Shown piece after piece: positions 51,513 to 53,405 of a DNA stretch of 64,000 nucleotides. The stretch covers positions 310,001 through 374,000 of the forward strand of contig NZ_JAGGNW010000009.1 in NCBI RefSeq assembly GCF_018614875.1. Direction: 5' to 3'. The number at the start of each line of letters is the position of its first letter. Position 1 is the stretch's first letter. A program made the translations under genes and the position numbers. Below the pieces are notes generated by a model. That model saw only the letters and a list, made by a program, of their open reading frames with translations, was not told the origin of the DNA and searched no databases. Source of the DNA: Variovorax paradoxus. Its GTDB lineage: Bacteria > Pseudomonadota > Gammaproteobacteria > Burkholderiales > Burkholderiaceae_C.

Positions 51513-53405
51513 TCAGGGCTGCTGCTCCTTGGGACGCTCGCCGGGGCGGCCGGGCGGCCGGCGATGGGCGGCTGCGGCGGCCGCCGCCGCGTGCTGCTCG
51601 GCCTGCTGCTGGCGGATCTGTGCCTGCTGCGCCTGCTGCTGCTGGCGCTGCTGTTGCTGCTGTTGCTGCATGCCCTGTTGTTGCTGGCGCGCCGCTTGCA
51701 CCTGCTGTTGTTGCCGGTGCATCTGCTCTTGCTGCTGCTGCCGGGCCTGCTGCTGCGCCTGCTGCCGTTGCATCTGCTGCTGTTGAGCCTGTTGCTGCTG
51801 AAGCACGCGGGCTTGTTGCTGTGCTTGCTGTTGCTGCATCTGCTGGCGCCGTGATTGCTCCTGCTGCGCCGATTGCCGCTGTTGCTGGCGCTCCTGCATT
51901 GCCTGCTGATGTTGTTGTTGTTGTTGTTGTTGTTGTTGTTGTTGTTGGGTCTGCCGATTGGCCGCGCGCGCCTGTTGCTGTTGTAGCTGGGCCTGTTGTC
52001 GCGGCGCTTGTTCCTGCTGTTGTTGTTGAGGCAGGGCCTGCGGCGGTTGCTGGGCGGTGTTGCGCGCCTGCTGCCGTGCCTGTTGCTGCGCCTGCTGGCG
52101 CTGCAGCCGATCTTGCCGCTGTTGTTGCTGAAGGCGTGCCTGTTGCTCCTGCTGCGCCTGCTGGCGCTGGCGCGTTTGCAGCTGCTGGACCTGTTGCCGC
52201 GCCTGTTCCTGCTGCTCCTGCTGCTGGCGCACAAAGGCTTGCTGCTGCCGTGCCTGCTGTTGCTGTTGCTGTTGCTGGACCAGGGCGTTCTGCTGTGGGG
52301 CCGGAACTGGAGCGCCCGCGAAATTGGGCGCGAGAGCGCCAGGTGGCACACCGCGCGGCGCATTGTTGTTGTTGTTGTAGACGTTGCGCACGTTGTTGAC
52401 CACGGTCGTCGAACGCGAGATGTAGGTGCTGTTGTTGTAGACCACGGCGGGCCGGGCGTAGGCCGGCGCCACCGCGCGGTCGCGATCCCTGTAGCGCGGT
52501 GCGCCCCAGTTCATGTTCCATGAACGCCAGCCCCAGTCGTGGCGTTCGAGCGCGGCGCCCACGACCACGCCGAGCCCGAAGGTGAACGCACCTGCCGCCG
52601 CCATCTGGCCGCGGCTGTAGCCGGGCGCAGCCTCGACGGGCGGGGCATACGCATAACCGGGGTACACCGGCACCGGCTCGCCGTAGATTCGCTGCGGGTC
52701 GTAGCTCGGCACGTACACCACGTCGGGCTGCGCAGGCTCGATGGTGATGAATTGCGGTGGCGGCTCGATCACGGCGGGGCCGGCATACACCGGTTGCATG
52801 TCCGGCGCCGGGTTGTAGTTCTGCGGTGTCGCTGCGGTGGCAATGCGCAGCCTGTTGTTGTTCTTGAGCCGGCCCGCCGTCGATGCGCGCTGGCGCATGA
52901 CCTGGATGGCATTCATCACGTCGGCCGGGTCGTTGTAGTAGGCCTGGCCGAGCGCCTCGGTCCACGCAATGTTGCCGGCCATCTGGTCCAGCACCGGGCG
53001 GAATGCGGTGAGCGACTTGACGCTCGGATCCCATGGCTGCTGGTTGGCCGCATCGGCGAGCGGACCGCCCTTGAGCGCCGCGTTCTGCGCCAGCCAGCCG
53101 TGCGCGGCGGTGATCTGGTCGGGATAGGTGGAGCCGGCCAGCACCTGCGCCACCAGCTTGTCGGGATACAGCGCGATGGGGGCGACGAGCTGATAGAGCT
53201 GCTCGGCCGAGGGCGGCGTGTAGGCCGCTGGGGTGGGGGTGGCCGGCCCGGGGGGCGCGGGCGCGGCGGCCGCTGGAGGCGCGGGCGCGGGGGCCGGGGC
53301 CGAAGGCGTGTCGGTTTTGTTGCAGCCTGCCACGGCGAGCGCGCCGATGCACAGCGAGATCGTCAGGAGCCGCGCGACCGGTGTGCGGCGCAATGTTGTT
53401 GTCAT
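51513..53405 (-). CDS. DUF3300 lipoprotein with very long glutamine-rich tail
   Basis: The 630 aa product has a lipobox (LAVAGC28), a Pro/Ala linker to about 60, and a DUF3300 domain (about 65-270: QLYQLVAPIALYPDKLVAQV, QPDVVYVPSYDPQRIYG). A short Asn-rich stretch follows, then about 280 residues of mainly Gln with Arg, Ala and His. The longest pure run is 12 Gln, coded by a CAA microsatellite. DUF3300 proteins are exported with unknown function. The tail is likely disordered or coiled and could bind cell wall or nucleic acid. AGGAA seven bases before the ATG fixes the start. The antisense frames give only low-complexity shadows. Confidence 0.88.
   Translation of the reverse strand: MTTTLRRTPVARLLTISLCIGALAVAGCNKTDTPSAPAPAPAPPAAAAPAPPGPATPTPAAYTPPSAEQLYQLVAPIALYPDKLVAQVLAGSTYPDQITAAHGWLAQNAALKGGPLADAANQQPWDPSVKSLTAFRPVLDQMAGNIAWTEALGQAYYNDPADVMNAIQVMRQRASTAGRLKNNNRLRIATAATPQNYNPAPDMQPVYAGPAVIEPPPQFITIEPAQPDVVYVPSYDPQRIYGEPVPVYPGYAYAPPVEAAPGYSRGQMAAAGAFTFGLGVVVGAALERHDWGWRSWNMNWGAPRYRDRDRAVAPAYARPAVVYNNSTYISRSTTVVNNVRNVYNNNNNAPRGVPPGALAPNFAGAPVPAPQQNALVQQQQQQQQARQQQAFVRQQQEQQEQARQQVQQLQTRQRQQAQQEQQARLQQQQRQDRLQRQQAQQQARQQARNTAQQPPQALPQQQQQEQAPRQQAQLQQQQARAANRQTQQQQQQQQQQQQHQQAMQERQQQRQSAQQEQSRRQQMQQQQAQQQARVLQQQQAQQQQMQRQQAQQQARQQQQEQMHRQQQQVQAARQQQQGMQQQQQQQRQQQQAQQAQIRQQQAEQHAAAAAAAAHRRPPGRPGERPKEQQP
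51911..51946 (-). repeat. (CAA)12 trinucleotide microsatellite
   Basis: Twelve perfect GTT units on the plus strand (CAA for the DUF3300 gene) encode 12 consecutive glutamines. Elsewhere in the tail Gln is coded by mixed CAG/CAA, so this pure run probably grew by replication slippage. Changes in length would keep the reading frame. Confidence 0.95.

Follow-up and report, generated by a model that had tools for sequence, protein, structure and literature searches.

A glutamine-rich tail patterned as a polar alpha helix on a predicted DUF3300 lipoprotein of Variovorax paradoxus

A predicted lipoprotein encoded within a 64,000-nucleotide stretch of the Variovorax paradoxus genome (the window) carries a long glutamine-rich tail behind its DUF3300 domain, and sequence statistics show both that this tail is conserved and that its residues follow the pattern of a polar alpha helix without a hydrophobic seam. 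In the best-supported reading, for which the chances are evenly balanced, the tail is a natural Gln-based single alpha-helix serving as an envelope spacer or tether.

The gene lies on the minus strand at 51513-53405, with its ATG at 53405 and its stop codon ending at 51513, and the boundaries and strand of the original prediction are exact for its 630-residue product. A signal peptide with a lipobox occupies residues 1-28 (53322-53405, minus strand, as are all the parts of the gene), and the lipobox, VAGC at residues 25-28, is followed by Asn at +2 and Lys at +3, a sequence from which lipidation is predicted. The lipobox pattern is present in 49 of 50 loci from congeners (the exception, L107, is truncated at a contig edge); of those 49, 35 have Asp and 12 have Asn at +2, usually with Lys next. 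According to passages of PMC6469965, the Asp+2 retention signal of E. coli is strong only if no basic residue lies next to it, and it is rarer outside enterobacteria. An Ala/Pro-rich linker of low model confidence (residues 29-60; 53226-53321) leads to the DUF3300 domain (residues 67-299; 52509-53207), which matches PF11737 with E=7.4e-55 and 186.4 bits against a curated cut-off of 25, placing the protein in a family that Pfam annotates as of unknown function. The expectation of an exported lipoprotein with a DUF3300 domain is therefore borne out at the level of prediction by lipobox and Pfam match. DUF3300 is the only Pfam domain in the protein (no second match at E up to 1), and none of the NCBIfam models matches it up to E = 0.01. 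The nearest named relatives, compared over the best domain segment, are from Variovorax sp. OV700 (94%), V. beijingensis (89%) and V. paradoxus (82%), and place the genome in Variovorax.

As delimited by the authors' own domain profile, the protein continues for 283 residues after the domain, which agrees with the positively charged Gln/Ala/Arg tail of about 280 residues first described. Its dense Gln tract (residues 371-604, 234 residues, 59% Gln) is in frame with DUF3300 and contains 138 Q, 28 A, 25 R, 8 E and 1 D, giving 34 charged residues (~15%) and a net charge of +16, along with two His. The description of such tracts as rare is fair for the source genome, in which a DNA pattern for eight Gln has 11 overlapping matches on four contigs, against 7 for the reversed control pattern; the matches fall in the DUF3300 lipoprotein gene (two stretches), in the gene of one exported DUF6600 protein and in two other open frames. 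A survey of 20 bacterial species reports that low-complexity regions are uncommon in bacteria and that Q-rich ones are the best conserved (PMC8004648).

A charge-pair analysis was performed on 69 Q-rich tails, from which 23 representatives sharing less than 80% domain identity were taken, with enrichment calculated against expectation; L137, a loosely matching protein of the classical type, and L076, whose tail is broken by masked bases, were left out of the tail counts. Acid-to-base pairs occur at 4.18 times expectation at i+3 and 2.97 times at i+4, and base-to-acid pairs at 2.71 times at i+4, while base-base pairs stand at 0.22 times at i+3, 0.35 times at i+4 and 1.45 times at i+7. The helix charge pattern is above expectation in all 23 representatives, and in all ten when the threshold is lowered to below 65% identity, although it is marginal in four (L237, 1 against 0.6; L238, 2 against 1.4; L068, 3 against 1.9; L118, 5 against 3.0). 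The 117 i+4 pairs lie in 79 distinct 7-mers and so are not copies of one repeat. Among the control tails, enrichment at i+3 and i+4 is 1.43 and 0.94 times for Gly-rich classical tails, 1.54 and 1.20 times for other classical tails, and 3.15 and 1.01 times for Pro-rich lipoprotein tails; because the Pro-rich tails are also enriched at i+3, only the combined i+3/i+4 signal was used as a diagnostic. The median Pro-free run is 183 residues long across 50 tails, that of the window protein and those of 49 congeners (L076 dropped).

A hydrophobic coiled coil was rejected, given that the residues AVILMF have no periodicity of 3.5 or 7 and that large hydrophobic residues avoid one another at i+4 (0.42 times expectation) and i+7 (0.60 times), so that a coiled-coil seam is absent. 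Gln follows large hydrophobic residues slightly more often than expected, at 1.25 times at i+3 and 1.16 times at i+4. Self-association of the tail as an amyloid-like or matrix fibre is disfavoured and appears quite improbable. Long polyglutamine aggregates in eukaryotic proteins, and the Gln content of the tract, whose longest run has 12 Gln against 24 in the relative L071, would fit such behaviour; however, the runs are mostly short and interrupted by Ala, Arg or Glu in helix register, Ala content is high, and the net charge is +16. The amyloid-like reading of the original prediction thus gives way to one in which charge spacing and dispersed hydrophobic residues fit a soluble single alpha helix and not a coiled coil with a hydrophobic seam.

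Structure models were calculated with alignments that took 62 and 30 of 80 relative loci, plus the window protein. The model of the DUF3300 domain (pLDDT 84.7, pTM 0.86) comprises eight helices and, after them, a beta region. The protein has no sequence relative in the PDB at E up to 1, a Foldseek search with the domain model gave no significant match (best E 0.077), which does not prove a new fold, and VIA-align gave no match with Z of at least 2 among 286 re-aligned chains. In the AlphaFold2 model of the full-length protein (pLDDT 74.6, pTM 0.50), the tail is predicted to form a first helix at residues 373-451 (79 residues; 52053-52289), which also bears the charge pattern, and a second at residues 470-613 (144 residues; 51567-51998), which ends in an Ala run, separated by a Pro-containing break at residues 452-469 (51999-52052). 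Ten-residue pLDDT blocks range from 84 to 93 in the first helix, except for a first block of 66, and from 82 to 91 in the second, except for a first block of 68. The model finishes in an unstructured 17-residue tip that is basic and Arg/Pro/Gly-rich (residues 614-630; 51516-51566), and similar Arg/Pro-rich ends close the tails of most congeners. AlphaFold readily builds helices from Gln/Ala/Arg sequence, and since the tail also had no aligned rows, the modelled tail helices are weak support for a helical tail.

PF11737 matches were found in 70 of 101 congener (Variovorax) genomes and split, for whole hits, into two score groups: classical proteins at ~271-314 bits and the lipoprotein type at ~187-198 bits. 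The classical type is present in 19 of the 101 genomes and the lipoprotein type in 53 (51 whole hits and two fragments, in G098 and G100, which were not fetched with flanks), leaving 48 genomes without the latter; only G010 and G068 possess both. Fifty whole lipoprotein-type loci were fetched from congeners, excluding the window's own locus, and the comparison of relatives proposed with the original prediction found the tail neither absent nor random but Gln-rich in all 50. In 49 of these the tail measures 193-467 residues with 47-66% Gln, and in L076, where it is interrupted by masked bases, 171 residues. This distribution bears on the scarcely credible idea that the tail serves as a signal for secretion, as the XVIPCD does in killing effectors of type IV secretion systems. 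Passages of PMC6536674 describe XVIPCDs as Gln-rich in their C-terminal region and list a Variovorax strain with an X-T4SS, but they also give the XVIPCD ~120 residues with conserved motifs and name a single Variovorax strain, whereas the protein studied here combines a lipobox with a 234-residue tract, lacks a second Pfam match, and belongs to a type found in more than half of the congener genomes.

Beyond Variovorax, 18 of 19 lipoprotein-type loci from other genera of the family were fetched, the omitted one (L058 of G442) lying on a contig that ends inside the domain. A Q-rich tract of at least 100 residues is present in 11 of the 18, and the remainder have Pro/Ala-rich tails or very short ends, such as those of L131 (62 residues) and L133 (27 residues). 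Loci from named genera divide in the same way: tails from Xenophilus, Pseudacidovorax and Comamonas are Q-rich, and those from Duganella, Dyella, Luteibacter, Collimonas and Serratia are Pro-, Ala-, Asn-, Gln- or His-rich mixtures. The family does not depend on the helix, given that some lineages have Pro-, His- or Asn-rich or very short tails. Of 398 genomes sampled from the phylum, 59 match DUF3300, which also occurs in Acidobacteria. Classical tails in the sample are mostly Gly/Arg-rich or otherwise low in complexity and mostly cationic, but two of them, L157 and L164, exceed 30% Gln, and so Q-rich tails also arose outside the lipoprotein type.

DUF3300 and DUF2950 are described in passages of PMC4653623 as universally co-localised and induced in root-nodule bacteria. 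DUF2950 is present in 19 of the 101 congener genomes, which are exactly the 19 with classical DUF3300, and the lipoprotein type occurs without it except in G010 and G068, the genomes with both types. No DUF2950 match was found in the source genome, where the neighbours of the DUF3300 gene encode an M20 peptidase and a DUF3299 protein, so the gene is not part of a classical pair. The matching occurrence of DUF2950 and classical DUF3300 accords with the published co-localisation rule, but the lipoprotein type breaks it.

Repeat slippage was considered as a source of the tail. The tail DNA contains one perfect triplet array according to Tandem Repeats Finder, 38 bp corresponding to a run of 12 CAA codons, together with imperfect repeats of 9-30 bp; these repeats, the strong variation in tail length and a synonymous divergence roughly double the value for the domain would suit a neutral outcome of CAG/CAA triplet slippage. 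Gln codons are mixed, however (89 CAG and 49 CAA), and the helix charge pattern is present in each lineage representative. Among 16 close pairs, dN/dS over aligned tail codons is 0.043-0.121 in 14, against 0.06-0.33 for the domain, with the pairs L062-L065 and L129-L132 saturated and giving no tail value. These values come from codon alignments guided by the protein sequence, a procedure that biases dN downward in low-complexity regions, and the raised synonymous divergence of the tail suggests that part of its codons are misaligned, lowering apparent dN/dS. This bias was gauged by 80 neutral simulations of the window tail alone at assumed rates, realigned in the same way, which gave mean dN/dS values of 0.46-0.53 and a minimum of 0.27; the observed values lie under every simulation, and alignment bias therefore does not account for the low tail dN/dS. 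A slippage artefact was rejected on codon mixture and dN/dS, and neutral slippage is very improbable as an explanation. The sequences instead suggest a tail whose length varies freely, whose amino-acid pattern is kept, and whose aligned codons look strongly constrained.

A further alternative is that the tail acts via its charge, as a cationic arm binding an anionic polymer such as peptidoglycan, LPS, extracellular DNA or polyphosphate, with the helix as a mere solution to solubility. All 61 Q-rich tails examined are net positive (median +5.8 per 100 residues, range +0.4 to +10.4), and among lineage representatives, tails of whatever composition are positive in 79 of the 85 classical and 34 of the 39 lipoprotein-type proteins, where the classical set comprises all loci scoring 130-290 in the authors' domain profile, Acidobacteria included. 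Universal positive charge as the conserved property is nevertheless weakened by the 11 of 124 representatives that fail to show it: tails are neutral or negative in six classical and five lipoprotein-type representatives, and the latter five show that what is conserved is not charge alone. The basic residues are, moreover, spaced for helix pairing and not clustered. Deletion of the E. coli DUF3300 gene yacH, reported as CpxR-regulated, shifts survival under the cationic peptide protamine according to passages of PMC9600279, which would fit a charge-based role, but under protamine the mutants showed better survival than the wild type, though the authors claim a contribution to resistance. Action through charge is possible but doubtful.

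E. coli YacH shares the DUF3300 domain and also ends in a long repeat tail rich in Gln, Arg, Ala and Glu, but it has no readable lipobox, its tail contains repeated SPEQR segments, and it scores as the classical type, with 238 bits in the authors' domain profile against 487 for the Variovorax protein. Expression of yacH drops in a rob mutant under butanol stress, as stated in passages of PMC7537768. The yacH reports, which concern a protein of the classical type, favour an envelope-stress role for the DUF3300 family.

Upstream of the DUF3300 gene, across a gap of 155 bp, lies a DUF3299 gene (53561-54199, minus strand, start taken from the open reading frame; PF11736, E=1.9e-43), and on the same strand follow genes identified by family search as an FtsX/MacB-type ABC permease (54202-55470) and an ABC ATPase (55466-56212). 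Next is a gene for a ZrgA-family zinc uptake protein (56217-56795, minus strand, start from the open reading frame), which matches PF10986 above its cut-off (E=9.5e-42) but scores below the NCBIfam ZrgA equivalog cut-off (103.7 bits against 185). The usual order in congeners is rhodanese-ZrgA-ATPase-permease-DUF3299-DUF3300, and DUF3299 accompanies DUF3300 within the fetched stretch at 45 of the 50 congener loci, one of the five misses, L107 on a contig edge, being uninformative. This common gene order would suit a DUF3300 lipoprotein that assists the neighbouring ZrgA zinc-uptake ABC transporter, perhaps by delivering metal or substrate to it. However, ZrgA is present in 89 of the 101 congener genomes against 53 for the lipoprotein type, three of those 53 (G010, G059 and G072) lack ZrgA, DUF3299 is kept nearby in only 4 of 18 loci from other genera of the family, and the Gln tract is all but free of His. 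Linkage of the lipoprotein to the ZrgA cluster is common but not obligatory, and an accessory role in zinc uptake is unlikely. An alignment of 18 upstream regions also reveals a conserved block at 53483-53510 (minus strand), a candidate promoter or regulator site, which is present in diverged form at L062 and L065, where the Zrg cluster is not adjacent, and at L064, L067 and L075, where DUF3299 is ~2.7 kb away. The conserved block suggests that the DUF3300 gene has its own promoter or regulator site, a further point against a zinc-uptake accessory, though a scan of the upstream region for the sigma-70 consensus found no site.

The features of the tail may be compared with those of known extended segments. 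Charged SAH domains (criteria from passages of PMC5378345) share with the tail the pairing of opposite charges at i+3/i+4 and the lack of a hydrophobic heptad, but classical SAHs possess a dense charge network, and none was found in the Variovorax tail, where sparse charges stand on a Gln background. Designed Gln-based single helices, as presented in passages of PMC9674830, are short peptides with Leu acceptors, Ala acceptors being weaker, whereas acceptors in the Variovorax tail would mostly be Ala or Gln, and the helix would be a natural one exceeding 140 residues. These short designed examples make a monomeric Gln-based helix physically plausible. In TolA domain II, which measures 110-335 residues, helical and polyproline forms occur in different lineages (passages of PMC12204202), and the domain shows repeat-driven variation with phenotypic effect (passages of PMC3477136). 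The tail resembles it as a long low-complexity envelope segment that is helical or Pro-rich by lineage and of repeat-variable length, but the Variovorax lipoprotein lacks TolA domains I and III and the inner-membrane motor helix. A lipobox replaces the transmembrane anchor and DUF3300 is the sole Pfam domain, setting the protein apart from TolA/TonB force transducers, and the source genome encodes its own TolA as a separate protein, whose domain II is Pro-rich and then Lys/Glu/Gln/Ala-rich. The tail is therefore read as a stalk analogous to TolA domain II and not as its relative.

In the proposed layout, an N-terminal lipid anchor would be followed by the flexible Ala/Pro linker, the globular DUF3300 domain and a C-terminal stalk, whose helical segments would extend ~12 and 22 nm at 0.15 nm per residue. 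The stalk would keep the basic Arg/Pro tip distant from the DUF3300 domain and could thereby bridge envelope layers (membrane, peptidoglycan and opposite membrane), acting as a spacer or tether in the manner of TolA domain II, with its length shifting via in-frame gain or loss of repeats. Unlike TolA, the protein has no C-terminal binding domain that would point to a target of the tip.

More broadly, and more tentatively, a Gln-based single alpha-helix of up to several hundred residues may have evolved in Variovorax and its relatives as a periplasmic lipoprotein ruler or tether that swaps with Pro-rich stalks over evolution, with sparse i+3/i+4 salt bridges holding Gln-rich sequence helical and soluble. 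Among the matches listed, no earlier account of a Gln-rich single helix or lipoprotein tail like this one was found in the open-access literature. Should the stalk prove to be a Gln-based helix, it would provide a natural and genetically tractable test of how polyglutamine-rich sequence is kept soluble and helical, the stalked lipoprotein would join the known envelope spacers, and the natural length variants of Variovorax would permit a direct ruler experiment.

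Among DUF3300 proteins (PF11737) outside Variovorax, tails of more than 30% glutamine are also found in two members of the classical type from other families of the order (loci L157 and L164), so that glutamine-rich tails either arose repeatedly or persisted across the split between the classical and lipoprotein types. Lipoprotein-type members from Burkholderia, Duganella, Luteibacter and Herbaspirillum (L232, L239, L254, L255, L257 and L258) possess near-neutral to acidic tails, several of which are rich in histidine close to the C-terminus and are possibly metal-binding. The C-terminal end of E. 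coli YacH (L208:2908-4761) consists of repeats of approximately 30 residues that are rich in Gln, Arg and Glu and carry SPEQR motifs, which are reminiscent of the LTxxQ motifs of CpxP/Spy. Regulation of yacH by CpxR is reported (PMC9600279).

Of the 101 Variovorax genomes, 19 carry both classical DUF3300 and DUF2950, often in multiple copies, and none carries one of the two without the other; the pair is therefore a good candidate for a two-gene system.

The conserved block upstream of the window DUF3300 gene (53483-53510) contains the palindrome TGCATC-GGC-GATGCA in the window copy, and an alignment of 18 upstream regions showed that the left half is more widely kept than the palindrome. Elsewhere in the window, a 6/30-bp tandem array of CCATGC units (38562-38633) lies within long ORFs on both strands.

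A second protein with a glutamine-rich tail is encoded in the genome that contains the window: an exported DUF6600-domain protein (contig C6 near 474,717; L204:946-2958, minus strand; E = 4.6e-27), the C-terminal end of which is rich in Gln, Ala, Arg and Met, includes a run of Ala-Gln dipeptides, and is similar to the glutamine-rich tail of the DUF3300 lipoprotein. Unrelated envelope proteins may bear the same kind of stalk.
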